DNA from: Pseudonocardia autotrophica | GTDB lineage: Bacteria > Actinomycetota > Actinomycetes > Mycobacteriales > Pseudonocardiaceae | Assembly (NCBI RefSeq): GCF_000717175.1 | Contig: NZ_JNYD01000026.1 | Location: 1-64,000, forward strand | Reading direction: 5' to 3' | Length of the DNA: 64,000 bases | The notes under the pieces: model-generated | Told to the model about the DNA's origin: nothing | What the model saw: only the letters and a program-made list of their open reading frames with translations | Database searches by the model: none | Program-made: the position numbers and the translations under genes | Shown here: positions 44,910-58,889 of the stretch, piece after piece | How positions within the stretch are numbered: the stretch's first letter is position 1 | Layout: each line of letters opens with the position of its first letter

Positions 44910-47006
44910 TTGGCCGACACCGCGTCCGGCACCGACCCGTCCGGCACCCTGTCCGACAGCCCGTCCGACAGCCCCGGAACCGACTGGGAGCGGGTGCTGA
45001 ACCCGCGGACCGTCGTGATCCTGGGCGCGTCCGGCCGGGCGGACAACCCGATGGCCCGCCCGCTGCGCTGGCTCGCCGAGCGCGGCTTCGCCGGCCGCGT
45101 GGTGCCGGTCAACCCGAAGTACGACGAGCTCGCCGGGCTGCCCTGCGCCGCCTCGCTCGCCGACGTCGAGGGCCCCGTCGATCTCGTCCTCGCCATGGTC
45201 CCGGCGGCGCGGGCGGCCGAGGCCGTCCAGGACGCGGGCCGGGCGGGGGCGGTTGCGGTGATCGTGTTCGCGTCCGGGTTCGCGGAGGTCGGCCCGGAGG
45301 GCGCGGCGCTGCAGGAGGAGCTGGTGGCCGCCGCCCGCGAGACCGGCGTGCGCGTGTTCGGCCCGAACTGCCAGGGGATCGTGCACACGCCGAGCCGGTT
45401 GTTCGCGAGCTTCTCCGCCGCCGCCGAGCGCCCGCTGACCGAGAGCAGCGGCATCGCCTACGTGGGGCAGAGCGGCGCGATCGGCGGATCCGTCCTCGAC
45501 CTCGCCGCCGAACGCGGCCTCGACCTCACGACCTGGGTCAGCACCGGCAACCAGGCGGACGTCGACCTCACCGAGATCGGGAGATACCTGGTGTGCCGGC
45601 CCGAGATCTCCGTGCTGGCGGTGTACGTCGAGAACCTGCGTGACGGCGCCGCCTACGCAAGGATGGCCGAGACGGCCGCGGCCCACGGCACGGCGCTGGT
45701 CGTGCTGCGGTCCGGGCGCTCGGCGGCCGGGAAGCGGGCCGCCGTGTCGCACACCGGCGCGATGGTCGGCGACGACACCGCGTTCCGCCTGGTCTCCCGC
45801 CGGCACGGCGTCGTGCTGGTCGACGACGTCGAGGAGCTCCTCGCCGCCGCCACCATGCTGCGGGGCCAGCCCCGGCCGACGGGCCGCGGGGTCGCCGCGG
45901 TGACGACGTCGGGCGGCGCGGGCATCCTCGCCGCCGACCGGTGCGAGGGACTCGGGCTGCGGCTGCCCGAGCTCGCCCCGGAGACCCAGGAGAAGCTCGC
46001 GCGCCTGGTGCCGGAGTTCGGCGCGCTCGCCAACCCGGTGGACGTGACCGCCCAGCTGTTCAACCGCGGCGACCGCGCCTTCGGCGAGGTCTGCGCGATC
46101 GTGTGCGCCGACCCGTCCGTCGACTCGCTGCTGGTCCTGGTCACGATGGTCACCGGGCAGGAGGCGGTCGCCCTGGCCGAGGACCTCGCCGCGGCGATGC
46201 GGGGCGGCCCCGTCCCGTGCGCGGTCGCGTGGCTCGCCGGGCCGGACCGCACGGTCGAGGCGCGCGCCCTGCTCACCGCGGCCGGCATCCCGGTGTTCGG
46301 GTCCGTGGCGGTGGCCTCCCGGGTGCTCGCGGAGCTGGTCCGGGAGCCCGGGCCCGACGCCGTCGCCGCGGCCCCCGCGCCACCCGGCCCGCTGCCGTCC
46401 GACGGCTGGGAGCTGCTCGACGCGATCGGCGTCCCCCGCCCCGAGGGCCGCTCCGCCGCCACGGCCGAGGAGGCCGAGCGGATCGCGGGCGAGCTCGGCG
46501 GCCCGGTCGTGCTCAAGGCCGAGGGCCCGGCGCACAAGTCCGAGGTCGGCGGCGTGCGGATGGACGTGCCGCCCGCCGAGGTCGGGCAGGTGGCCGCCGA
46601 GCTGCTCGGGCTCGGCGGCGCCGTGCTCGTCCAGCGCCGGGCCCCGGCCGGCCTCGAACTGCTCGTCGGCGCGACGTCGGGCGGCGACGGCTGGCCGCCC
46701 GTCGTGACCGTCGGGCTCGGCGGGGTCGCCACGGAGATCCACCGGGACCTGGCCACCGCGCTCGCCCCGCTCGACCGCGACGCGGCCCGCGCCCTGCTGC
46801 GGGAACTCCGCAGCTGGCCGCTGCTCGCCGGGCACCGCGGCGCCGAGCCGCTGGCGGTCGACGCGGCCGTCGACGCGATCGTCGCCGTGTCCCGGGCGGC
46901 GACGGACCCCACGGTTGCCGAGCTGGAGATCAACCCGCTGATCGTCGGGCGGGACGGCGTGGTGGCGGTCGACGTCCTCGTCCGCCGGACCGAGGAGGAG
47001 CGCTGA
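44910..47006 (+). CDS. ADP-forming acyl-CoA synthetase
   Basis: This 698-residue protein has the order CoA-binding domain (residues about 30-150, ILGASGRADNP), succinyl-CoA-ligase-like flavodoxin domains and a C-terminal ATP-grasp part. The phosphohistidine site is AAVSHTGAMVGDD with His281. Such enzymes convert an acyl-CoA to the acid plus ATP, or the reverse. I chose TTG 44910 because GAGGAGG lies 9 bp before it; upstream frames are open but without a ribosome site. The enoyl-CoA hydratase follows by 1 bp. Confidence 0.85.
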   Translation: MADTASGTDPSGTLSDSPSDSPGTDWERVLNPRTVVILGASGRADNPMARPLRWLAERGFAGRVVPVNPKYDELAGLPCAASLADVEGPVDLVLAMVPAARAAEAVQDAGRAGAVAVIVFASGFAEVGPEGAALQEELVAAARETGVRVFGPNCQGIVHTPSRLFASFSAAAERPLTESSGIAYVGQSGAIGGSVLDLAAERGLDLTTWVSTGNQADVDLTEIGRYLVCRPEISVLAVYVENLRDGAAYARMAETAAAHGTALVVLRSGRSAAGKRAAVSHTGAMVGDDTAFRLVSRRHGVVLVDDVEELLAAATMLRGQPRPTGRGVAAVTTSGGAGILAADRCEGLGLRLPELAPETQEKLARLVPEFGALANPVDVTAQLFNRGDRAFGEVCAIVCADPSVDSLLVLVTMVTGQEAVALAEDLAAAMRGGPVPCAVAWLAGPDRTVEARALLTAAGIPVFGSVAVASRVLAELVREPGPDAVAAAPAPPGPLPSDGWELLDAIGVPRPEGRSAATAEEAERIAGELGGPVVLKAEGPAHKSEVGGVRMDVPPAEVGQVAAELLGLGGAVLVQRRAPAGLELLVGATSGGDGWPPVVTVGLGGVATEIHRDLATALAPLDRDAARALLRELRSWPLLAGHRGAEPLAVDAAVDAIVAVSRAATDPTVAELEINPLIVGRDGVVAVDVLVRRTEEER

Positions 47007-47007
47007 G

Positions 47008-47745
47008 ATGGGCCGCATCGTGCTGGAGAAGGCCGACGGGGTCGCGACGCTCACCGTCGACTCCCCCGAGGTCCGCAACGGGCTGACCCCCGACATGGGT
47101 CGCGAGCTGGTCGCGGCGTGCGAGGAGGTCGACGCCGACCCCGCGGTCGGCGCGGCAGTGGTGCGGGGCGCGGGCGGGACCTTCTGCTCCGGTGCGGACC
47201 GGCGCCGCTGGCGGCCGGGCGCCGACCAGGCCGAGGACGCCACCTACCGGGACACCGGGGCGGTCTACCAGGCGTTCGTGCGGGTCGGGAAGCTGGCCGT
47301 ACCCACGATCGCGGCGGTCCGCGGCGCCGCGGTGGGCGCCGGGATGAACCTCATGCTGGCCACCGACCTGCGGGTGGTCGCCGAGGACGCCCGGCTGCTC
47401 GCCGGGTTCCTGCGGATCGGCCTGCACCCCGGCGGCGGGTTCTTCACGCTCGCCGGCCGCACCGCGGGCCGCGAGGCGACGGCCGCGATGGGCCTGTTCG
47501 GCCAGGAGATCGACGGGCGGCGGGCGGTCGAGATAGGCCTGGCCTGGACCGCGGTCCCGGACGACGAGGTCGAGGACACCGCCCACCGGCTCGCCGCCGG
47601 GCCGGCGCAGGACCCGGCGCTGGCCCGCGAGGCCGTCCGCTCCTTCCGCACCGAGCTGGGCCCGCCGGCCATCGGCTGGGACGCCGCCGTCGAGTTCGAG
47701 CGGGCCACGCAGATGTGGTCGCAACGCCGCCGCACCAGCAGCTGA
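47008..47745 (+). CDS. Enoyl-CoA hydratase/isomerase family protein
   Basis: This 245-residue crotonase-fold protein has GAGGTFCSGADRRRW and AAVRGAAVGAGMNLMLATDLRV. Its placement directly behind an ADP-forming acyl-CoA synthetase suggests a short catabolic pathway. ATG 47008 overlaps neither gene, with GAGGAGG inside the preceding gene. Confidence 0.85.
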   Translation: MGRIVLEKADGVATLTVDSPEVRNGLTPDMGRELVAACEEVDADPAVGAAVVRGAGGTFCSGADRRRWRPGADQAEDATYRDTGAVYQAFVRVGKLAVPTIAAVRGAAVGAGMNLMLATDLRVVAEDARLLAGFLRIGLHPGGGFFTLAGRTAGREATAAMGLFGQEIDGRRAVEIGLAWTAVPDDEVEDTAHRLAAGPAQDPALAREAVRSFRTELGPPAIGWDAAVEFERATQMWSQRRRTSS

Positions 47746-47801: not shown

Positions 47802-48587
47802 ATGACGGCGGAGCCGCCCGCGGACGTCCCCCGCTCCGCGCGCCGGCGCCCGGACCTGCGCCGCCCGCAGAAGGTCCCGCTGATGATCGCGCAGCGGATC
47901 GTCGACGACATCACCGGCGACGGCCTCGGGCCCGGCACCCGGCTCGCCGGCGAGCGGGACATGATGGCCCGCTTCTCCGCCGGGCGCGGGACGCTGCGCG
48001 AGGCCCTGCGGTTCCTCGAGCTCACGGGCGTGATCACGGTGAAGGCCGGGCCGCGCGGCGGTCCCGTCGTGATGCAGCCCGACGGCACCGATCTCGCCGG
48101 CGTCCTCGGTCTGTTCCTGCAGCTCCGGACCGTGTCGTTCCGGTCGGTGATCCAGGTACGGGAGATCCTCGAGCCGGAGCTGGCCGCGTTGGCCGCGAAC
48201 GGGACCGACGCGGCCGCGGCCGCCGAGATCGCCGACTCGATCGCGGGCATGCGCGCCTTCCTCGACGACGAGGAGAACTTCCTCGCCGAGAACGACCGGT
48301 TCCACCTGGCCGTCGCGGCCGCGGCCGGGAACGAGCTGTTCGAGCTGTTGATCTCGTCGTTGCACCTGATCACGGACGGCATGCCGCTCGGGGTGAGCTA
48401 CCCGCCGCGGCGGCGGGCGGCGGTGCTGCGCGCCCACGAGGCCATCCACGCGGCCCTGCTCGCGCGCGACCCGGACCGCGCCCGGGAGGCGATGCGGCGG
48501 CACATGGCGGAGTTCCGCCGGTACGTCGAGACCCGGTTCCCGGGCGTGTACGAGCGGCCGGTCCGCTGGCGGGACATCGCGCCCTGA
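47802..48587 (+). CDS. FadR-type GntR regulator (FCD domain)
   Basis: This 261-residue protein has a GntR helix-turn-helix (IAQRIVDDITGDGLGPGTRLAGERDMMARFSAGRGTLREALRFLELTG) and an all-helical FCD effector domain. The ligand is often an organic acid. A shared operator half-site at its own promoter and at the promoter of the MFS-UGSC operon makes control of that operon likely. It ends 6 bp from that convergent operon. Confidence 0.87.
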   Translation: MTAEPPADVPRSARRRPDLRRPQKVPLMIAQRIVDDITGDGLGPGTRLAGERDMMARFSAGRGTLREALRFLELTGVITVKAGPRGGPVVMQPDGTDLAGVLGLFLQLRTVSFRSVIQVREILEPELAALAANGTDAAAAAEIADSIAGMRAFLDDEENFLAENDRFHLAVAAAAGNELFELLISSLHLITDGMPLGVSYPPRRRAAVLRAHEAIHAALLARDPDRAREAMRRHMAEFRRYVETRFPGVYERPVRWRDIAP

Positions 48588-48593
48588 GCGAGC

Positions 48594-49508
48594 TCACTGG
48601 TCGAGCGCGCGGTGGACGGCTCGGGAGCCGCCGATCCAGCCGGGCAGGTGCAGCATCTTGACGCCCGGACCGCCGGAGACGATCACGTGGACGTCGTCGG
48701 CCGACGCAGCGACCGGGTGCCCGGCCCGCACGGCGCCGCCCTCGTACAGCGCGCGGGCGGTCGAGGCGGCCGTCTCCCCCAGCCCGGCCAGCCGCCCCGC
48801 GACCTCCGGCGGCAGCACCACGGCCTGCGCGCCCGAGGACATGCGGCGCGGGTCACCGGCGGCGCGGACCGCGCTGGCCAGGGCGTCGGCGAGCGGGTCG
48901 AGGATCTCGGCGACCGTCCCCCCGCCGGCCCGGGGCAGCACCTCGGCGGTCCCGCCGACGGCCAGCACGCTCACCGCGTCACGGTCGAGCCCCGAGACGC
49001 CGCCGAACGGGGTGCGGTGCTCGGGGAGACAGAACGTGTAGCGACCCGGCTGGCCCGTCGTCGCCATGTCCGTCTCCCCCGGGCGTGCGCCGCCGATCCC
49101 GGCCAGCGCGAGGGCCACCGCGCGGCCCACGCAGGCGTTCACCCGGTTGCCGGGGCCGAGGACGTTGGTCCCGGGCCGGAACCCGAGCCGCTCGACGACC
49201 GGACCTCCCACGACGACGCACACCGCGGCCGTGCCCGTGGTCGTCTGGACACCGAGCAGGTTGAACTCCGGCTCGAGGCACGCACGCAGCGCCGCGACCA
49301 CGACCGGCAGCTCGGCGGGCCGGCATCCGGCGAGGACCGCGAAGTAGGCGACCTTCCTGCTGGTCAGCACCCCGAAGAGGGGCGGGACCGGGCCGAGCTC
49401 GACGTCGTCGCCGCCCATCCCGGCGAGCCGCTCCGCGGTCGGCTCGACGACGGGCAGGCCGTCTCCCGCACCGGAGGCGAGCAGCTCCTCGATCTCATCC
49501 GGGGACAA
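48594..49508 (-). CDS. Unknown UGSC-partner domain protein (paralogue 3)
   Basis: This 304-residue protein is homologous along its length to the gene before it and to the C-terminal part of the UGSC fusion. Shared residues include LAGCRPAELPVVVAAL, GFRPGTNVLGPGNRVNACVGRA and DMATTGQPGRYTFC. The AGCRP Cys is invariant in all three. I started it at TTG 49508, overlapping the previous gene by 14 bp; an earlier start is possible. Last gene of the operon. Function unknown. Confidence 0.65.
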   Translation of the reverse strand: MSPDEIEELLASGAGDGLPVVEPTAERLAGMGGDDVELGPVPPLFGVLTSRKVAYFAVLAGCRPAELPVVVAALRACLEPEFNLLGVQTTTGTAAVCVVVGGPVVERLGFRPGTNVLGPGNRVNACVGRAVALALAGIGGARPGETDMATTGQPGRYTFCLPEHRTPFGGVSGLDRDAVSVLAVGGTAEVLPRAGGGTVAEILDPLADALASAVRAAGDPRRMSSGAQAVVLPPEVAGRLAGLGETAASTARALYEGGAVRAGHPVAASADDVHVIVSGGPGVKMLHLPGWIGGSRAVHRALDQ

Positions 49509-50508
49509 CGCGCGACACCAGCTCCGTCGCCCCGAACGACGGGATCCACGCCGAGTGCTTCCCCGGTCCACCGGCGACACAGACGTGGAGCTGCCGGAGC
49601 CCGTCGGACACGGTGTAGCCGTCCTCCTCGGGCTTGATCCCGGACTCGTCGAACTGCACGTGGTTGCCCTCGGAGATCCGGTCGAACGGGATCCGGGCCA
49701 GCTCCCAGAGCCGCTCCCGGATCGTCTCGACGGTCCAGCCGTCGCGGGCGAGGGTGTCCGCGTGCTCGGGGCCGAGGACGAGCAGGTGCGGGCCGCGGAC
49801 GTAGACGTTGTTGGAGCCGGACTCGGCCATGGTCCCCGCGATCGTCACGAGGATCTCCTCGCCGGTGCGGCTGCCATGGTCGTTGATGTTGTGCGGCGGC
49901 TCGGCGGCCATCACCGAGACCACGGAGTCCTCGGGCCCGAATCCGCGCTGCACATGCAACGGCGGGAACGGCGAGTCCGCCTCCGCGAAGCAGAACGTGT
50001 ACTTCGCGGGCGAGCCCTGCGTGGAGCGGTCCATGACGCCGGGCGTGGCCCCGCCGACGTTGCGCAGCACGAGCGACAGGGCCCGCCCGACGACGGCGTT
50101 CGCCCGGGTCCCCTGCCCGAAGCAGTTGCCACCGGAGTTGAACCCCTGGTCCCGCACCGGGCCGCTGACCAGCACCATCGGTGCGCAGGGATGCGTCGTC
50201 GCGAGAGAGCCGTGCAGGTTGTAGGCCGGATCCGTCGTCCCGAGCAGCGCCGCGACGACGACCGGCAGGTCCGCGGGCCGGCATCCGGCCATGACGGCGT
50301 TGGCGGCGACCGACCGCAGCCTCGGGATCATCCGGGCGGGCGGGAGCGGGGCGAACTCCGGCGGGTCGCCGGGGAACGCGGCCAGCATCGCGTCGACCAG
50401 TGCCTCGGTGGGCGGGACGGTGGGCAGCCCGTCGCTCCAGCCCTGCTCCTCGGCGTAGCCGAACCACTCGCCCGGGTCCAGGTCCGGGACGTCGAGCACG
50501 TCGGTCAC
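49495..50508 (-). CDS. Unknown UGSC-partner domain protein (paralogue 2)
   Basis: This 337-residue protein matches the gene after it and the C-terminal part of the UGSC fusion: AANAVMAGCRPADLPVVV, GFNSGGNCFGQGTRANAVVGRA, STQGSPAKYTFCFAE. GTG 50508 overlaps the stop of the short UGSC gene by 4 bp. No known fold is recognised. The conserved AGCRP Cys and two further Cys could take part in thiol chemistry with the UGSC Sec. Confidence 0.7.
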   Translation of the reverse strand: MTDVLDVPDLDPGEWFGYAEEQGWSDGLPTVPPTEALVDAMLAAFPGDPPEFAPLPPARMIPRLRSVAANAVMAGCRPADLPVVVAALLGTTDPAYNLHGSLATTHPCAPMVLVSGPVRDQGFNSGGNCFGQGTRANAVVGRALSLVLRNVGGATPGVMDRSTQGSPAKYTFCFAEADSPFPPLHVQRGFGPEDSVVSVMAAEPPHNINDHGSRTGEEILVTIAGTMAESGSNNVYVRGPHLLVLGPEHADTLARDGWTVETIRERLWELARIPFDRISEGNHVQFDESGIKPEEDGYTVSDGLRQLHVCVAGGPGKHSAWIPSFGATELVSRVVPG

Positions 50509-51023
50509 AGGTCCTCCAACTCACGCACCATCCCGGCGTAGGCGGCCTCGACCCGGGTGGCGAACTCCTCCGCGTCGAGCCCGCCGACCGGGTGGTCGAC
50601 CACGATCACGCGTGGCTCCACCTTGCGCGCCGTGGCCTGCGCGCGTACCAGCGGCAGGAACGTCGAGGTGACGATCAGGAACGGGACGACGCCGCGGCGC
50701 TCCAGTTCCACCGAGTCGTGGAGACTCCACGACGAGCAGCTGCCTCAATCGCCGATGGCGACGATCGCCATCCGGTACTGCGCGGCGAGGTGGTCGAGCG
50801 TCTCCTCCGCCGTCGGATGGGCGGCCTGCGGTTTCGAGGCGAACCCGATGTCGCGGAACCCGCGCTCGGCCTCCAGCCGCGCGGCCACCTCGCGGAGCAG
50901 CTCGGTGGCACCGGGCTTGGAGTTCGAGAGCAGGCAGAGCGCGTCCGCCGGGATGCCGTCGTGGGCGACGGGGGTGACGTCCGTGTCGTCGGGCAGGCCG
51001 AACGTCGGGTCGACGATCTTCAC
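50505..51023 (-). CDS. UGSC selenoprotein (short form), Sec at codon 93
   Basis: Reading through the TGA at 50747-50745 gives a 172-residue protein with Sec93 in the motif IAIGD-Sec-GSC. The first 92 codons and the 79 codons after the TGA are in the same frame with unchanged codon bias; the downstream half (ELERRGVVPFLIVTSTFL) has no natural start of its own. A stem-loop follows the TGA. It belongs to the UGSC family described from metagenomes. GTG 51023 overlaps the reductase-like gene stop; its stop overlaps the next gene start. A Cys form (CGSC) is known in relatives. Function unknown; the Sec-x-x-Cys pair suggests redox chemistry. Confidence 0.82.
50715..50733 (-). promoter_or_regulatory. 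Candidate bacterial SECIS stem-loop of the short UGSC gene
   Basis: On the mRNA, GUCGUGG pairs with CCACGAC over loop AGUCU, beginning 11 nt after the UGA. Counting U of UGA as 1, loop bases 23-24 are G and U, the same positions as the essential G-U in the E. coli fdhF SECIS. Confidence 0.65.
50745..50747 (-). other. In-frame TGA read as selenocysteine (Sec93)
   Basis: TCA on the plus strand. It sits where a UGSC motif expects Sec, between Asp and Gly-Ser-Cys. Confidence 0.8.
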
Positions 51024-51823
51024 GTGTCCTCCAGGAAGTCGACGGCGGCGAGGCCGGCGCGCAGGCCGTCGGCCGCCGCGGCGACGAGGTAGGGGGCGGT
51101 GCCGGCGACGTCCCCGGCGGCGAACAGGCCCGGGGTGTCGGAGACCAGCTCGGTGCGGGGCTCGGCACCGGTGTAGACGAACACCCCGCCTGCCTCCAGC
51201 TCGGTGCCGTCCGCCAGCGCCAGGCCGCTCACCCGGTCCTCGCCGAGCACGGCGCGCACGCGCCCCCGCCGGACCTCGATCCCGTCCGGCGCGGCGGACC
51301 AGCGCGGCTCCCCCGGCGCCACGACGGTGACCTGCGAGGCGAACGCGGTGAGCTCACGGGCCTCGTGGGCCGCCCACTCGTCGTCGCCGACGACCACGAC
51401 CGGTTGCCCGGCGTACAGCGGCCCGTCGCAGGTGGCGCAGGTGGCGACCCCGCGCCCGGTCCAGTCCCCCGGCACGTCCAGCCGGCCGTCCGTGAGTCCG
51501 GTCGCGACCACCACCGCCCGCGCGGTCGCGTCCCCCTCGCCCGTGGCCAGCGTGAACCCGGGAGACAGCGCGGTGACCTCGCCGTACGCGATCTCCACGC
51601 CGGCGCCCATGGCCTCCTCGAGCAGGGCGCTCATCAGGTCCGGCCCGGTCGTCTTCACGCCGGGGTAGCCGACGACCTCACCGATGTTGACGAGCCGCCC
51701 GCCGGGCGACAGCGCGTCCCACGCGCACACCCGGAGCCCGCGCTCGGCAGCCGTCCGCGCTGCCGTCAGGCCCGCGATCCCCGCCCCGACGACGGCCAGG
51801 TCCCAGCTCGGGTCCCCGCTCAT
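51020..51823 (-). CDS. Thioredoxin-reductase-like flavoprotein
   Basis: This 267-residue protein has the FAD motif VVGAGIAGLTAARTAAERG, the redox pair CATC (Cys129-Cys132) as in thioredoxin reductase, a later NADPH Rossmann-like region (VVVVGDDEWAAHEA, atypical) and GLFAAGDVAG. It is shorter than ordinary thioredoxin reductases (about 315 residues). Its place between the two UGSC genes suggests it feeds electrons from NADPH to the Sec-Cys pairs. ATG 51823 overlaps the fusion stop by 4 bp. Confidence 0.8.
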   Translation of the reverse strand: MSGDPSWDLAVVGAGIAGLTAARTAAERGLRVCAWDALSPGGRLVNIGEVVGYPGVKTTGPDLMSALLEEAMGAGVEIAYGEVTALSPGFTLATGEGDATARAVVVATGLTDGRLDVPGDWTGRGVATCATCDGPLYAGQPVVVVGDDEWAAHEARELTAFASQVTVVAPGEPRWSAAPDGIEVRRGRVRAVLGEDRVSGLALADGTELEAGGVFVYTGAEPRTELVSDTPGLFAAGDVAGTAPYLVAAAADGLRAGLAAVDFLEDT

Positions 51824-53502
51824 GTCTCGATCCGCCGGCTCACCGGCACCCCCTGTACGTGGTTCTGGACGTAGCCGCGGGACTGGTTGCGGCCCTCGTT
51901 GCCCGCCAGCACGATCGCGATGTCCTCGGCCTGAGGACACATCGGCACGAGCCGCTCGGGATCGTCCCCGGCGTAGCGCTCGTCCAACTCGCCCCGCTCG
52001 ACCAGGGACGACACCCGGAAGCTCGTGGACCCGACGGCCCACGCGCACCGCTCCAGCTCCTTCACCGGGATCAGCATGTGCTCGGCGAGGTAGCGGCGCA
52101 GCGCGGGCTTGTCGTAGCCGTGGCGGGCGAGCGCCGCCGCGATGGACGGGCCGAGCACCAGCAGCGGGTGCCAGGCCCCGAACTCCATGCCCGTGTAGGA
52201 CCACGGCCCCATCGCGTTGCCGAACACCAACGCGAGCGGCTCCAGGTGGTCGTCGACCGCGTCCCCGCCCGTGTAGATCGGCGCGCTCACCGTGAGGCAG
52301 CTGCGCACCGACACCACCGAGTCCGCCGCCGCGAACCCGAGGTCCTCCCGGTGCGACGGCCACCCGAGCTCGCGGACCGCCGCGTCGTTCTCGGCCAGGA
52401 CCACGTGGAAGGACGCCCCGATCGCGCCCTGGTCGGTGTGCTCGGGCAGGATCCGCAGGCCCGCGAGATTCCGCAGGTAGAGCCGTAGGAACCGGCCCAC
52501 GGACGTGTTCGCGCGGTTCCCCACGCGCAGCACGCCGGTGCGCGAGTTGAACCCCAGCCGCTCGACGACGGGTCCGGACAGGACGACCAACGACTCCCAC
52601 CCGGGCGTCGAGCCGGCGTCCTGGACCCGGAACTCCGGCGCGGCCACGCACTCGACGATCCCGAGCAGGACGGGCATGTGCTCGGGCCGGCAACCGGCCA
52701 TCACGCCGTTGACCGCGACGGACCAGACGGTGGCCTCGCGCAGGTCCGGCGGGAGCACGCCGAGCACCTCGTCCGGGTCCCTGCGGGTGTGCCGCAGGAA
52801 CTCCTCCACCCGCTCGACGGTGGGCGGGACGATCGGCAGCCCGTCCGTCCAGCCCTGCTCCTCGAAGGCGTCGAGGACGGCGTCGAGGTCCCCGCGCACG
52901 ACGATCTCCCGCGGCCCGGGCTCGACGTCCGACGCGGTGTCCTCGACGGAGTACGTCCTGGTCAGGGCGTCGACGACGGCGGGCGCCACGATCTCGCGCA
53001 TCTTCCCGCGGAACACGTCCGTCTCGTCGGTGAGGATCACGCCCGGGTAGCTGACGATCGGCACGTGCGGGATGCCCAGGGACTTCCCGATCGCCCGGCC
53101 CATCGGCTCGAACCCGGATCCGCCGATGGCGACGGCCGGGACCCCGGCCCGCTCGGCGGCGGCTGCGGCCCGCATCACGGCAGGCATGCAGGAGCCTCAA
53201 GCACCGACGGCGGCGACGACCAGGTCCACCCGGTGTGCCCGCAGCAGCTCGGGCAGCTCGCCGAGGACCCGCTTCTCCTCGGCCGCGGAGGCGTGGAAGT
53301 TGCCGAAGGTCTCCCACCCGACGAACTCGACGTCCCCGTGCCGCTCGCGCGCGACCTCGGTGATCACCTCGAACATCTCGGGGCCGCGGAACAGCTCGTC
53401 CCACAGATAGGCCACCCGCCGCCCGCCGAGTTCCGCGGGGCGCTCCCCCGCCTCGACGGCGTCCAGCACCTTGCGGCCCAAGGGCCATACAGCCTCGAAC
53501 AC
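51820..53502 (-). CDS. UGSC selenoprotein fusion, Sec at codon 102
   Basis: Reading through TGA 53199-53197 gives a 560-residue protein: an N-terminal UGSC domain (residues 1-200) with AVGA-Sec-GSC at 102-105, then a C-terminal domain (about 220-560) homologous to the two downstream genes (NGVMAGCRPEHMPVLL, GFNSRTGVLRVGNRANTSVGR). Frame and codon bias are the same on both sides of the TGA. GTG 53502 abuts the MFS stop with no spacing. The fused domain order shows that the UGSC and partner domains work together. Reaction unknown. Confidence 0.8.
53169..53192 (-). promoter_or_regulatory. Candidate SECIS stem-loop of the UGSC fusion
   Basis: On the mRNA, CCUGCAU pairs with AUGCGGG (one G-U pair) over a 10-base loop containing GU, beginning 4 nt after the UGA. 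Distance and size fit bacterial SECIS elements. Confidence 0.5.
53197..53199 (-). other. In-frame TGA read as selenocysteine (Sec102)
   Basis: TCA on the plus strand, directly followed in frame by GGC TCC TGC, i.e. Gly-Ser-Cys. Confidence 0.78.
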
Positions 53503-54780
53503 TCAGTCCTCCGCCGTGATCTCCCGCCCCGCCCGGTCCTTGAGGAAGAACGCGGCCAGGAACACCAGCGCCGCGCCGAAGCCCGCGATGGACACGGCGA
53601 TGCCGTACCCCGAGCCCGCCGCGACGATCCCGCCGATCAAGGTCCCGAACCCGGAGAGCCCGCGCCCGACGTTGTACGCCGCGGCCGAGCCCAGCGACCG
53701 GATCCGGGTGGGGAACAGCTCGCCGAACCACACCCCGAAGATGCCGAAGTAGCCCAGGAACAAGCTGGTCAGCAGGTACATCCAGGTGAACGCGCTGGCC
53801 CCTCCGCCGGACACGGCGAGGCCGAACATCACCAGGAACACCACGGCCTGCAGCCCGGAGAACACCAGGAACACGGGGCGCCGGCCGAGCTTGTCGGACA
53901 GCCAGCCGGCCAGGATGAACCCGACGAACGAGATGGCCGAGGCGAGGTAGAGCACGAGGCTGGCCTCGTTCGCGTCGAACCCGAGGTCGCTCTTGAGCAG
54001 CGACGGCATCCACGTGGTCGCCGTGTACGGCACCCACTGCGCGCCGAACGCCGCGACCAGGCCGACCAGCACGATCGGCAGGCTGTCCTTCATGAACAGC
54101 TGCCGCCAGCTCGACCGCCGCGCCACCGCGGCGACGTCCGACGACAGCTCCCCCGCCGCCTTGCGCCGCTGCAGCTCGGTCCACTGCTTGGACTCCGGCG
54201 TCGCGTACCGCACCCAGACACAGGCCAGGGCGGGCAGCACGCCGATGAGGAAGGCGTAGCGCCAGTCCGGAAGGGTCTGCGCCGCGAGGATCGCCAGCGC
54301 GTAGGCGGGCCAGAGCGAGGACTGCACGAGCCCGCCGCCCAGCCCGCGCCGCTTCGGCGACCACGCCTCGTTGAGCCACGCGAACCCGACGGCCCACTCG
54401 CCGCCGGTCCCGACGCCGGTGAAGAACCGCAGCACCACGAACACCCAGAAGTTCGGGGCGAAGAACACCAGGCCGGTGGCGATCGAGTAGATGAGGATCG
54501 ACCAGATCAGCGTCCGGCGACGGCCGAACCGGTCCCCGAGGTAGCCGAACGCGAGCCCGCCGACCGCGGAGCCGATGAGCTGCACCAGGATCGCGACGCT
54601 GAACGTGCCCGGCCCGATCCCGTACGCCGCCATGATCGGCGCAGCCAGCAGGGACGGGAGCATGAAGTCGAAGTACTCCATGCCCCAGCCGAGGCACGCG
54701 GCGGTGAGGACCCGGCGCCGCTCTCCCGGTGTGTAGGAGAGCGAGCCGGTGGCGGCGGAGCGTTCCTGGCCGGTCGTCAT
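53503..54780 (-). CDS. MFS transporter heading the UGSC operon
   Basis: This 425-residue 12-helix carrier has MEYFDFMLPSLLAAPIMAAYG, loop 2-3 GDRFGRRRTLIW and GTGGEWAVGFAWLNEA. It belongs to the sugar-acid/aromatic-acid symporter-like MFS group. ATG 54780 follows AGGGGG. First gene of the operon and so probably its substrate importer. Its promoter carries a GntR half-site. Confidence 0.87.
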   Translation of the reverse strand: MTTGQERSAATGSLSYTPGERRRVLTAACLGWGMEYFDFMLPSLLAAPIMAAYGIGPGTFSVAILVQLIGSAVGGLAFGYLGDRFGRRRTLIWSILIYSIATGLVFFAPNFWVFVVLRFFTGVGTGGEWAVGFAWLNEAWSPKRRGLGGGLVQSSLWPAYALAILAAQTLPDWRYAFLIGVLPALACVWVRYATPESKQWTELQRRKAAGELSSDVAAVARRSSWRQLFMKDSLPIVLVGLVAAFGAQWVPYTATTWMPSLLKSDLGFDANEASLVLYLASAISFVGFILAGWLSDKLGRRPVFLVFSGLQAVVFLVMFGLAVSGGGASAFTWMYLLTSLFLGYFGIFGVWFGELFPTRIRSLGSAAAYNVGRGLSGFGTLIGGIVAAGSGYGIAVSIAGFGAALVFLAAFFLKDRAGREITAED

Positions 54781-54878: not shown

Positions 54879-55640
54879 TCAGTGGATGTGCGAGCCGCCG
54901 TTGACGTCGTAGGTGGCGCCGGTGATGTAGCCGGACTCCGGGCGGCAGAGGTAGGTGATCAGGTCGGCGACGTCCGCGACCCGCCCGTTGCGCCCCACCG
55001 GGATCCCGGAGAGCAGGGCCTCCTTGCGCTCGCCCTCCAGGGCCCCACCGGTGATGTCGGTGTCGATCAGGCCGGGGGCGACGCTGTTGACGGTCACGCC
55101 GTGCGGGCCGAGCTCGCGGGCCAGGGCGCGGGCGAACCCGAGCTGGGCGGCCTTGGCCGCGGAGTACGCGACGCCGCCGAACACCCCGCCGCCGCGCTCG
55201 GCGGACACCGAGGACAGGAACACGACCCGGCCGAAGCCGCGCTCGGCCATCCCGGGCGCGAGCCGCCGGGTGATGTTGTAGGCGCCGCGGACGTTCACGG
55301 CGAAGATGCGGTCCCATTCGGCGCCGTCGACGTCGAGGAACCGGGTCGGCGAGGTGATGCCGGCATTGTTGACCACGGCCCCGACCGGCGGGGCGTCCGC
55401 GGTCAGGGTGTCGACGGCGGTGGCGACCGAGGTCTCGTCGGTCACGTCGCAGGCCAGGCCGAACGCCTGGACCGGGTGGGCGCCGGCGATCTCGTCGGCG
55501 GTGGCCTTGGCGGCGGCCTCGTCGAGGTCGAGGACGGCGACGTTCCAGCCGGCGGCGGCGAGGGCGTGGGCGGTGGCGCGGCCGATGCCACGCTTCGACG
55601 CGGCCCCGGTGACGACGGCGGTGTACTCGGAAACGGACAC
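54879..55640 (-). CDS. Short-chain dehydrogenase/reductase (SDR)
   Basis: This 253-residue SDR has the NAD(P) motif VTGAASKRGIGRA, NNAG, the catalytic Ser and the active-site YSAAK. It oxidises or reduces a hydroxyl/keto compound; substrate probably links to the transketolase substrate. AGGAG before GTG 55640. Last gene of the transporter-transketolase operon. Confidence 0.88.
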   Translation of the reverse strand: MSVSEYTAVVTGAASKRGIGRATAHALAAAGWNVAVLDLDEAAAKATADEIAGAHPVQAFGLACDVTDETSVATAVDTLTADAPPVGAVVNNAGITSPTRFLDVDGAEWDRIFAVNVRGAYNITRRLAPGMAERGFGRVVFLSSVSAERGGGVFGGVAYSAAKAAQLGFARALARELGPHGVTVNSVAPGLIDTDITGGALEGERKEALLSGIPVGRNGRVADVADLITYLCRPESGYITGATYDVNGGSHIH

Positions 55641-55663
55641 TGGGTTCTCCTGGAGAAGTCGGC

Positions 55664-56653
55664 TCAGAGGGCGGCCTTGACCCGCGCGCAGAGCGCGTCG
55701 GTCGACAGGCCGTAGCGGTCGTGGAGGGTGGGCAGGGCACCGGCGGCGAGGAACTCGTCCGGCAGCGCGGCGGGCTGGATCCGGGTGGCGATCCCGGCGA
55801 ACGCGGCGGTGGCGGCGACCGCCTCGGACAACCCGCCGACCACGGTGTGGTTCTCCGCGGTGATCACCAGGCGGTCGGTGCGCAGCTCGCGCAGGATCGT
55901 CGCGGTGTCCAGCGGCTTGATCGTCGGGACGTGCAGGACGGCGGCGTCGACGTGGTCGGCCTCGAGCCGGGCCGCGGCCTGCAGGGTCCGCATGGTCATC
56001 AACCCGGTGGAGACGAACAGCACGTCCCGGCCGGGGCGGACCAGGGCCGCCTTGCCGAGCTCGAAGCGGTAGTCGTACTCGTCGAGCACGGTGGGGACCT
56101 TGCCGCGCAGCAGCCGCAGGTAGGTCGGCCCGGCGTGGTCCGCGAGCTGCGGCACGGCCTGCTCGATGTCGACCGAGTCGCAGGGGTCGACGATCGTGAG
56201 ATTCGGGCAGGCGCGCAGGATCGCGAGGTCCTCGGTGGCCTGGTGGCTGGGCCCGTATCCGGTGGTCAGGCCGGGCAGCGCGCCGACGACGTTGACGTTC
56301 AGCCCGGGCTCGGCGATGTCCAGGCAGAGGAAGTCGTAGGCCCGGCGGGTCGCGAACACCGAGTAGGTCGAGGCGAACGGGACGAGCCCGACCTCGGCCA
56401 GCCCCGCGGCCGCGCCGAGCATCGCCTGCTCGGCCATGCCCATCTGGAAGAACCGGTCCGGGTTCGCGTCCCGGAACACGTGCATGTCGGTGTACTTCGC
56501 CAGGTCCGCCGACAGCCCGACGATCTCGGGCCGCTCCTCGGCGAGCCGGTTCAGGGCGTGCCCGAACGGCGCGGGCGAGGTCCGCTGACCGGGGTCGGCG
56601 AACGAGGCGATCATCGCCGAGGTGGTCAGGCGCTTCTTCGTGGGGGCGGTCAT
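55664..56653 (-). CDS. Transketolase, C-terminal subunit
   Basis: This 329-residue protein has the pyrimidine-binding half of transketolase (GLSADLAKYTDM, FQMGMAEQAMLGAAAGLAEVGLVPFASTYSVF) and the C-terminal domain. It pairs with the N-terminal half encoded just upstream, with a 4-bp ATGA overlap. Split transketolases act on a range of sugars; here the donor is unknown. Confidence 0.88.
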   Translation of the reverse strand: MTAPTKKRLTTSAMIASFADPGQRTSPAPFGHALNRLAEERPEIVGLSADLAKYTDMHVFRDANPDRFFQMGMAEQAMLGAAAGLAEVGLVPFASTYSVFATRRAYDFLCLDIAEPGLNVNVVGALPGLTTGYGPSHQATEDLAILRACPNLTIVDPCDSVDIEQAVPQLADHAGPTYLRLLRGKVPTVLDEYDYRFELGKAALVRPGRDVLFVSTGLMTMRTLQAAARLEADHVDAAVLHVPTIKPLDTATILRELRTDRLVITAENHTVVGGLSEAVAATAAFAGIATRIQPAALPDEFLAAGALPTLHDRYGLSTDALCARVKAAL

Positions 56654-57516
56654 CGCTGAACTCCGTCCAGAGCATCGTGTGCGGCCGCCCACTCGTGCTC
56701 GGCGACCGGCATGAAATGGGCCTTCTCCCGGGACTCGAGGAACGGGACCCCGCGGCCGGTGCGGGTGTCGCAGATCAGCACCGACGGGCTGGTCGTCTGG
56801 TCGCGGATCTCGTCCAGGCCGGCGAGCAGGGCGTCGACGTCGTTGCCGTCGACCCGCACCGCGTGCCAGCCGAAGGCCCGCCACTTCTCGGTCACCGGCT
56901 CGGTCTTCAGCACGCCGGGGGTCGGCCCGTCGGCCTGCAGGCCGTTGACGTCGACGACCGCGGTCACGTTGGCCAGCCCGTGGTGGGCGCAGGCCATCGC
57001 GGCCTCCCAGGTCGAGCCCTCGTCGAGCTCGCCGTCGGAGAGCAGGTTGAACACCCGGGCCGGGTTGCCGCGGTGCCGCAGCCCCAGGCCCATCCCGCAG
57101 GCCACGCCGAGGCCGTGGCCCAGCGAGCCGCCGGAGATCTCCATACCGGGGGTGTAGGAGGCCATGCCGGACATCGGCAGTCGGGAGTCGTCCGAGCCGT
57201 AGGTCTCGATCTCGGCGAGCGGGATCGTGCCCGCCTCGGCCAGCGCCGCGTACAGCGCGATCGCGTAGTGCCCGATGGAGAGCAGGAACCGGTCGCGGCC
57301 GTCCCACTCCGGGTCCTCGGGGCGCAGCCGCAGCTCGCCGTCGCCCCGGCCGTAGAACACCGCGAGCACGTCGGCGACGCCGAGGGCCTGGCCGATGTAG
57401 CCCTGGCCCTGCACCTCCCCCATCGTCAGGGCGTGGTGGCGGATCCGGGTCGCGGCCGCCTCCAGCCGGGCGATCTTCGCCGCCCGTGCCGTGGTCGGGA
57501 GCGCGGTCGTCGTCAT
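56650..57516 (-). CDS. Transketolase, N-terminal subunit
   Basis: This 288-residue protein carries the TPP-pyrophosphate/Mg site (LLSDGELDEGSTWEAAM and VVDVNGLQADG) and the GSLGHGLGVACGMGLG loop. It is the partner of the C-terminal subunit. ATG 57516 overlaps the transporter stop by 4 bp. Confidence 0.9.
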   Translation of the reverse strand: MTTTALPTTARAAKIARLEAAATRIRHHALTMGEVQGQGYIGQALGVADVLAVFYGRGDGELRLRPEDPEWDGRDRFLLSIGHYAIALYAALAEAGTIPLAEIETYGSDDSRLPMSGMASYTPGMEISGGSLGHGLGVACGMGLGLRHRGNPARVFNLLSDGELDEGSTWEAAMACAHHGLANVTAVVDVNGLQADGPTPGVLKTEPVTEKWRAFGWHAVRVDGNDVDALLAGLDEIRDQTTSPSVLICDTRTGRGVPFLESREKAHFMPVAEHEWAAAHDALDGVQR

Positions 57517-58889
57517 CGGGTCTCCTTCGTGGACGCCGTGGTGGTCAGCCGGGGAGCCGGCGGGTCGGCGGGCGGCCCGGCGAGGGACCGCTCGAGGGCG
57601 GCGACCTCGGCGCGCTCGGTGCGGCCCCAGGTCTCGCGGGTCAGCAGGGTCGCGACCAGGCCGAGCACGCCGTAGGCGCTGAACAGCAGGGCCGGGCCGA
57701 CCCAGCCGGTGCGGGCGAACAGGGCGGTCGCGATCAGCGGGGTGAACCCGGAGACGACGGCCGAGAGCTGGTAGGCCAGCGACGCGCCGCTGGTGCGGGT
57801 GCGGGCGCTGAACAGCTCCGAGAACCAGGCGCCCTGGACGCCGGCCAGGCAGTTCTGGCAGACGGCGTAGCTGACGACGAAGGACAGCACGATCGCCACC
57901 GCCTGCCCCGTGTTGAGCAGCAGGAACAGCGGGACGCCCCACGCCACGGAGAGCACGGTGCCGATCAGGTAGACCGGGCGGCGGCCGATCCGGTCGGTGA
58001 GTGCACCCCACGTCACGGTCGCGGCGATGCCCAGGCCGGCGGCGAGCATGAGCGCGAACAGGGTCGTCGAGCGCGCGGCCAGCTCCTCGCTCGCCAGGTA
58101 CGACAGCACGAAGGTGACGGAGATGGCGTAGCCGGCGGTCTCGGTGATCCGCAGGCAGAAGGCGCGAAGGACGTTGCGCCAGTCGTCGCGCAGCACCTCG
58201 AGCAGCGGGTTCTTCGCGACCTCGCCCTCGGACCTGAGGTTCTCGAACTCCGGGGACTCCTCGACCTTCAGCCGGATCACGATGCCGACGACGATCAGCA
58301 CCGCGGACAGCAGGAACGGCACCCGCCACGCCCACTGCTCCCCCAGCGGCACCGACAGCAGGAACGCGGCGTTGGCCAGCAGCAGCCCGACCGGGAACCC
58401 GGCCTGCGTGATGCCGGTGTAGAGCCCGCGCTTGCGCCACGGCGCGTGCTCGAAGGTCATCAGGATCGCACCGCCCCACTCGGCGCCGAACGCCAGGCCC
58501 TGCACGACCCGGACGGCGACGAGCAGGATCCCCGCCCACACCCCGACCTGCGCGTACGTGGGCAGGACCCCGATGAGGACGGTCGCGATGCCCATCAGCA
58601 GCAGCGAGCCGACCAGCACCGGCTTACGGCCGATCCGGTCGCCGAGGTGCCCGCCGATGATCCCGCCCAGCGGGCGTACCGCGAACCCGATGCCCAGCGT
58701 CGCGAAGGACAGCAGGGTCCCCGAGAGCGGGTCGGTCGACGGGAAGAAGACGTGGTTGAAGTACAGGGCCGCGGCCGTGCCGAAGCCGATGAAGTCGTAG
58801 GTCTCGATCGTCGCCCCGATCGACGAGCCGAGGGCGACCCGCTTGCGGGCCGGTGTGCCCAGCACCGCGGGCGCGTGTTCTCCAGACAT
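57513..58889 (-). CDS. MFS transporter, MHS type
   Basis: This 458-residue carrier has the MHS start SSIGATIETYDFIGFGTAAAL, GGHLGDRIGRKPVLV and VQGLAFGAEWGGAILMTFEH. Heads the operon with transketolase and SDR, so it probably imports the sugar or organic acid that they process. ATG 58889. Confidence 0.88.
   Translation of the reverse strand: MSGEHAPAVLGTPARKRVALGSSIGATIETYDFIGFGTAAALYFNHVFFPSTDPLSGTLLSFATLGIGFAVRPLGGIIGGHLGDRIGRKPVLVGSLLLMGIATVLIGVLPTYAQVGVWAGILLVAVRVVQGLAFGAEWGGAILMTFEHAPWRKRGLYTGITQAGFPVGLLLANAAFLLSVPLGEQWAWRVPFLLSAVLIVVGIVIRLKVEESPEFENLRSEGEVAKNPLLEVLRDDWRNVLRAFCLRITETAGYAISVTFVLSYLASEELAARSTTLFALMLAAGLGIAATVTWGALTDRIGRRPVYLIGTVLSVAWGVPLFLLLNTGQAVAIVLSFVVSYAVCQNCLAGVQGAWFSELFSARTRTSGASLAYQLSAVVSGFTPLIATALFARTGWVGPALLFSAYGVLGLVATLLTRETWGRTERAEVAALERSLAGPPADPPAPRLTTTASTKETR

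Follow-up and report, generated by a model that had tools for sequence, protein, structure and literature searches.

The 64,000-nucleotide stretch analysed here (the window: positions 1 to 64,000 of contig NZ_JNYD01000026.1 of Pseudonocardia autotrophica) carries an operon in which two selenoproteins of the UGSC family are predicted together with members of a previously unnamed partner family, a thioredoxin-reductase-like flavoprotein and a carrier. On balance, the sequence favours a two-module selenium-dependent reductase that would cleave a group reductively from an imported organic acid. The operon consists of six minus-strand genes in the order major facilitator superfamily (MFS) carrier, A, B, C, D and E, with all ends touching or overlapping. 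The stop codon of the MFS gene directly precedes the GTG of A, the A/B, B/C and C/D overlaps are 4 bases each and that of D/E is 14. The initial annotation had described an operon with overlapping or abutting junctions throughout and two UGSC selenoprotein genes alongside a carrier, and the mapped gene ends and the assignment of the carrier to PF07690 agree with it.

A and C both belong to the UGSC family by PF24696 (89.4 and 129.1 bits respectively, cut-off 25 bits), whilst neither reaches the NCBIfam equivalog NF041046 (48.5 and 116.7 bits, cut-off 125 bits). The motif [U/C]xxC, where U is selenocysteine (Sec), occurs in both and is invariant in 35/35 aligned UGSC domains. The 52 UGSC rows (40 Sec, 12 Cys) compared for UxxCxxC were chosen by a pattern that itself demands [U/C]xxC, and a 53rd domain (L053) reads CSTC. 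Each of the two genes contains one internal in-frame TGA directly before Gly-Ser-Cys (VGA-U-GSC in A, IGD-U-GSC in C), and we regard it as almost certain from the sequence that both UGAs are read as Sec. Third-position G+C before and after the TGA is 0.93 and 0.97 in A and 0.96 and 0.93 in C, compared with 0.43-0.81 in the other frames. Twelve further operon loci were compared, four from Pseudonocardia (including L165, of the same species as the window), seven from Actinomycetospora and one from a Streptosporangiales bin; a thirteenth, L177 (27% identical), was left out of the counts. All 12 hold the TGA of A, and 11/11 that of C, the twelfth contig ending after A; identities to the window proteins are 46-100% before the TGA and 60-100% after it. 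An A protein with 100% identity to that of the window over 560 residues is encoded in a record of Pseudonocardia halophobica VKM Ac-1069. The genome (8.02 Mb in 152 contigs, searched with profiles) encodes SelA, SelB and SelD above the NCBIfam cut-offs, and selA, selB and selD cluster beside a tRNA-Sec gene scoring 66.5 bits (cut-off 47; seven further matches fall below it). As a control, the tRNA-Sec search gave a match in all 14 named genomes, in 5 of them above the cut-off. Within the genus (62 genomes), UGSC was found in 38 genomes and at least one TGA-type UGSC match in 29; tRNA-Sec over the cut-off is present in all 29 of these and in 56/62 overall. Nine genomes have UGSC matches but no TGA, and tRNA-Sec over the cut-off is missing from two of them (G008 and G060). 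The initial view of a single TGA before Gly-Ser-Cys in two genes with unbroken codon bias is therefore borne out by frame composition and conservation. The components that it named for checking (selA, selB, selD and tRNA-Sec) are all present, and the gene order, also named there, recurs in other actinobacteria.

A predicted RNA hairpin adds to this for C. In an alignment of 35 of the 40 Sec-UGSC genes (five fusion-type genes, in another register, were left out), a hairpin starting 11 nt after the UGA has 86.4% of cells paired, against 75.0% in shuffled and 18.9-55.7% in slid alignments, and 19 two-sided changes were observed against 4.8 in shuffles. C thus carries a predicted selenocysteine insertion sequence (SECIS) hairpin just after its UGA that covaries across these 35 genes. 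GU occupies a loop position, picked after the hairpins had been viewed, in 38/40 Sec genes against 2/12 Cys genes, and the codon there is AGT in 29/40 Sec-UGSC genes against 1/223 Ser codons in 13 window genes. In A, a 6-bp hairpin with GU in the loop lies in a different register and is no longer than expected from synonymous shuffles (fraction 0.58); since this hairpin alone is unexceptional, the Sec case for A rests on conservation and the shared motif. Apart from the plainness of that hairpin, nothing observed favours a reading of the TGAs as true stops, arising through decay, sequencing error or attenuation. We consider this very improbable given the conservation of the TGAs in 11-12 further loci, the codon bias that continues past both, the covarying hairpin of the C type and the complete Sec machinery in the genome. 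A Cys-type (TGC) UGSC gene elsewhere (L056 7903-8412) retains, in the same register, a SECIS-like stem of 6 bp with loop GCU, and is perhaps the product of a past Sec-to-Cys change. Formate-dehydrogenase-type matches to TIGR01591 below the cut-off, each with one internal TGA, were also found in the window genome (G000 C22:71427-73286, and on C7, C42 and C2) and are possible further selenoproteins.

D, E and the C-terminal part of A form one family, D being 35% and E 32-33% identical to that part of A (same-species locus L061). The family has no Pfam or NCBIfam match up to E 1, yet 5753 homologues were recovered at E <= 1e-3 among 7996 scored candidates. Of the 62 genus genomes, the 38 with D (E <= 1e-20) are exactly the 38 with UGSC (E <= 1e-3). 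Counting fragments as stretches, D lies within 1.5 kb of UGSC in 80/80 UGSC stretches and UGSC lies near D in 84/86 D stretches, the other two being at a contig start. Throughout the genus, UGSC is therefore constantly accompanied by D. Moreover, 49 loci were fetched from the UGSC matches of genome searches, and in 48 of them D adjoins UGSC or is fused to it, with either of the two first; only L115, which lies at a contig start, departs from this. It is nearly certain, judging from these sequences, that UGSC and D make up a functional pair. Because D and E belong to the partner family, the operon by sequence comprises two UGSC:D modules and one unpaired D protein: A is a UGSC1-D1 fusion, C and D are UGSC2:D2, and E is an extra D protein. 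The homology of two additional proteins to the C-terminal part of the fusion had been recognised in the initial annotation and stands, but that they form an unannotated family constantly partnered with UGSC had been missed. The AlphaFold2 models of A and D are confident, with a mean predicted local distance difference test score (pLDDT) of 91.5 and 93.4 and a predicted template modelling score (pTM) of 0.91 and 0.93, respectively.

UGSC-D pairs were also seen in other settings. The window genome holds a third pair, with one TGA (G000 C3:217755-219298; L046 6300-8308), which adjoins Rieske-, catechol-dioxygenase- and hydratase-like genes, named by reading the sequence. Two-domain D proteins of 561-574 aa are encoded at L116 6391-8112, L148 8317-10041 and L150 7380-9065. 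Their N-terminal part matches PF24696 weakly (24.9-28.3 bits, cut-off 25), and our own UGSC profile, run on L116 of these three, did not recognise it. The genes in L116 and L148 lie beside FAD-dependent oxidoreductase genes (that in L116 named by reading), and those in L148 and L150 near aconitase X genes. Two haloarchaeal plasmids (L146, L147) carry the row hypothetical protein-UGSC-D, and therefore the pair crosses domains.

The UGSC domain is very likely related, by remote homology, to the Sec domain of GrdB (glycine/sarcosine/betaine reductase protein B, PF07355) and PrdB (D-proline reductase, TIGR04483), a relation that we present as a new result of this sequence analysis. As a reference profile, 17 GrdB and PrdB-like genes from Actinomycetota (13 GrdB, 4 PrdB-like) were translated through their own UGA and aligned. 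Comparison of the 35 UGSC domains with this profile in hhalign gave a probability of 94.5 and an E value of 7.5e-8, with Sec aligned on Sec; masking the Sec/Cys columns left 87.7 and 3.4e-6. By contrast, 100 column shuffles gave probabilities of no more than 2.5 and the reversed alignment 0.5. Against the four PrdB-like sequences alone the probability was 90.4, and PrdB is, like UGSC, a small stand-alone Sec subunit. With GrdB, the UG(S/T)x motif and the E-R-x-G-I/V-P and HP segments align, and the GrdB-type UxxCxxC is found in 20/40 Sec-UGSC genes and 0/12 Cys forms. As single proteins, A matched PrdB, GrdH and GrdB weakly at the Sec, with E values of 0.012-0.047, and C did not. PF07355 has no match in A or C up to E 1, and UGSC is therefore a remote homologue and not a member of GrdB. 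What had been offered initially as an analogy with glycine and proline reductases thus becomes, on the UGSC side, remote homology by profile comparison. GrdE-GrdB clusters in other Actinomycetota (L151-L160), several of which include GrdA-like (CFVU) and thioredoxin-like genes, are apparently, by sequence, canonical glycine/betaine-type reductases; PF09338 and PF04723 were confirmed in 3/3 tested genomes.

B is a thioredoxin-reductase-like flavoprotein with CATC, as first described, and matches TIGR01292 with 149.7 bits, below the cut-off of 343. A flavoprotein/thioredoxin reductant for this operon is likely from the gene content. Moreover, on a Variovorax plasmid trxB lies within three genes of D-UGSC (the small neighbour of D there is a UGSC protein, 109 bits), on a Roseovarius plasmid it adjoins D-UGSC, in Arthrobacter the row is trxB-trxA-D-UGSC, and in L053 a UGSC-D gene is flanked by two thioredoxin reductase (TrxR)-like genes. 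The source of the electrons is another matter. Thioredoxin reductases of the NADPH type carry GGG(D/N)xA and HRR as signatures; B, a short chain of 267 aa, has VVGDDEWA in place of the former and no HRR, and three aligned orthologues have the same motifs. Most related operon copies read VVGDDxW(A/T)A at the first motif, and they have no HRR. Because B is without the usual signatures, NADPH as its donor, which the initial annotation had proposed, is not supported. That B is nevertheless an ordinary NADPH-dependent thioredoxin reductase delivering NADPH electrons strikes us as rather unlikely. It has CATC and is closest in the PDB to ordinary thioredoxin reductases, and the orthologue of Actinomycetospora termitidis reads GGDEW, but the altered motifs and short chain are set against three TrxB near UGSC-D in other taxa that keep both signatures (L142, L144 and L145; Variovorax, Roseovarius and Arthrobacter plasmids). 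Also among the PDB matches of B are 6gna, 6gnc and 6gnd, which we take to be FFTR structures. The accessible part of PMC12796991 describes FFTR enzymes as unable to use NADPH; B resembles them in being short and without NADPH signatures and in these matches, and differs in that its best matches lie elsewhere. By analogy, a ferredoxin-type donor for B would be our guess. Small NifU-like CxxC proteins lie near UGSC-D in 8 fetched loci (L047, L050, L055, L056, L103, L108, L115, L120) and may possibly be a redox helper; 4/8 match PF01106 at E <= 0.1, two of them above the cut-off, and they are absent from the window operon.

The order MFS-A-B-C-D-E is kept in the 11 operon loci where the contig runs on. 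Between the window and the 10 operon loci called in other species, the carrier is 73-96% identical, and its nearest NCBIfam models, with scores below the cut-off, are aromatic-acid and sialate H+ symport families. A homologue of the acyl-coenzyme A (CoA) synthetase next to the operon in the window adjoins it in 8/12 loci (one from the same species), a close enoyl-CoA hydratase homologue is found in 7/12 (one from the same species) and two acyl-CoA-dehydrogenase-like genes in 8/12, the Pfam check of these neighbours covering the window and L169. Elsewhere, UGSC-D pairs lie beside CoA transferases, tripartite ATP-independent periplasmic (TRAP) or MFS carriers and other catabolic genes. Such neighbours fit a route of acid catabolism by import, reductive group removal, CoA activation and beta-oxidation. 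In the reductase that we propose, the carrier would bring in a carboxylate, which D would bind and place at the selenolate of UGSC. The selenium would then attack the carbon bearing a leaving group (amine, halide, thioether or similar), as in glycine and proline reductases, and the resulting selenoether or mixed Se-S species would be resolved by the second Cys of UxxC. B would re-reduce the Sec-Cys pair, directly or via thioredoxin, from a donor other than NADPH (of ferredoxin or flavodoxin type), and the product acid would pass to the neighbouring CoA ligase and beta-oxidation genes. The two modules might act in sequence or on two substrates. A reductive pathway for an imported compound, as suggested at the outset, stays the likeliest prediction.

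Several results weigh against this reductase. With the 13 GrdB sequences alone, the hhalign probability for UGSC drops to 54.2, and the third Cys of UxxCxxC is missing in both window proteins (UGSCSSW, UGSCMPA). The window genome has no match to GrdB (PF07355), which was found in 63/296 genomes searched, nor to GrdA (PF04723) or a GrdE-type (PF09338) partner, for both of which positive controls were recovered in 3/3 cases. D has no convincing fold relative in the PDB, and its hhalign probabilities were 1.1 against GrdE and 0.3 against GrdB up to its Sec. Just 6/49 fetched UGSC loci showed a trxB-like gene, and 43/49 none; four of the six represent the same operon (one in the same species), the others being L053 and, at a distance of 4.3 kb, L048. 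A hint of a TrxR-UGSC2 fusion in database protein P0126 (32 residues against B, E 0.004) fails against another TrxB (E 0.77). Moreover, L166, L167 and L175 gave no call of a CoA synthetase homologue next to the operon, and L165, L166 and L175 none of the acyl-CoA dehydrogenase cluster (L176 is truncated). Lastly, a thioredoxin (Trx)-like fold was guessed for UGSC in the accessible parts of PMC2398784 and PMC13188914.

That grouping with Trx-like folds would favour UGSC:D as a thiol or selenol peroxidase or disulfide oxidoreductase in protection or repair, regenerated by B, as would the TrxR and Trx neighbours and the [U/C]xxC seen in every aligned domain. The profile homology, however, points to GrdB and PrdB, and importers, CoA transferases and acyl-CoA genes stand at several loci. 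In addition, each UGSC has a partner of some 300 residues; peroxiredoxins are not known to have such a partner, and we hold this activity to be unlikely. The scarcity of TrxR-like genes at the fetched loci could instead indicate a redox-neutral lyase, isomerase or transferase in which Sec is the nucleophile and B merely keeps it reduced, and the CoA transferase and meta-cleavage-type neighbours (the latter named by reading the sequence) are compatible with this. However, the second Cys is invariant across the 35 aligned UGSC domains, and the known GrdB and PrdB reactions are reductive according to the part of PMC13188914 available; we judge such a role improbable as well.

If reductive cleavage is the correct reading, UGSC:D might, more tentatively, represent a third branch of selenol reductases beside the glycine/betaine/sarcosine and the proline reductases. 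It would combine a GrdB-like Sec domain with an unrelated, non-pyruvoyl D and act in aerobes and haloarchaea on many acids, the operon being its two-module relay version. The actinobacteria and haloarchaea that carry UGSC-D are of an aerobic type, which sets them apart from GrdB systems, as do the absence of GrdB, GrdA and GrdE from the genome and a partner, D, unrelated by sequence. The Sec domain related by profile, and operons with a carrier and thioredoxin-type genes, are shared with them. PrdB differs in that its PF09338-type partner is missing from the window genome and that the single-protein match to it reaches just E 0.012. A precedent for GrdB-like selenoproteins beyond glycine is the fluoroacetate reductase operon farACEB with its MFS carrier, farE and farB, as described in the accessible part of PMC10838667. 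It too joins a carrier, a GrdB-like selenoprotein and a partner that is not a pyruvoyl pro-protein, for a substrate other than an amino acid. In contrast, it comes from an anaerobe, its farE and farB are direct GrdE/GrdB homologues, and it has a radical-SAM protein instead of a TrxR-like one (PMC10838667).

The UGSC selenoprotein family, of which A and C are members by PF24696, was among the most abundant Global Ocean Sampling selenoproteins in 2008, with 255 sequences (PMC2398784), and a 2026 review still lists it among the largely uncharacterized selenoproteins (PMC13188914, available part). The accessible part of PMC2398784 gives no partner protein, pathway or GrdB relation for the family; it does describe a UGSC/'Unknown_1' fusion, and Unknown_1 may be the D domain. 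The GrdB/PrdB homology, the constant partner with thousands of relatives and the conserved operons turn this into a concrete question, namely which acid induces the operon and whether it loses a group reductively. If true, the proposal would give a widespread selenoprotein family its first testable job and extend selenium-based bond cleavage, known from anaerobic amino-acid fermentation, to aerobic catabolism.

Table 1. Coordinates of the operon, its predicted elements and the surrounding genes in the window.
Feature	Position	Strand	Remarks
MFS carrier (importer candidate)	53503-54780	minus	PF07690 E 8e-43
A, UGSC1-D fusion selenoprotein, 560 aa if UGA = Sec	51820-53502	minus	GTG start; PF24696
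UGSC domain of A	52951-53499	minus	
D-family domain of A	51826-52908	minus	
In-frame TGA of A, predicted Sec codon	53197-53199	minus	kept in 12/12 other loci
Predicted SECIS apical hairpin of A	53168-53185	minus	6-bp stem, loop CGUGAU
B, thioredoxin-reductase-like flavoprotein	51020-51823	minus	CATC; without NADPH signatures
C, stand-alone UGSC2 selenoprotein	50505-51023	minus	PF24696
In-frame TGA of C, predicted Sec codon	50745-50747	minus	kept in 11/11 other loci
Predicted SECIS apical hairpin of C	50715-50733	minus	8-bp stem, loop GUC
D, partner protein	49495-50508	minus	family without Pfam or NCBIfam name
E, second stand-alone D-family protein, no UGSC of its own	48594-49508	minus	TTG start
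GntR/FCD regulator, convergent with operon	47802-48587	plus	PF07729 + PF00392
Acyl-CoA synthetase-like, predicted downstream step	44910-47006	plus	CoA-binding, Succ_CoA_lig, ATP-grasp domains
Enoyl-CoA hydratase, predicted downstream step	47008-47745	plus	PF00378
Short-chain dehydrogenase/reductase (SDR), split transketolase C and N halves, second MFS	54879-58865	minus	

The block of SDR, split transketolase and second MFS genes (54879-58865) is probably a separate module; of the 12 loci, only those of the same species and of Pseudonocardia terrae have it next to the operon.

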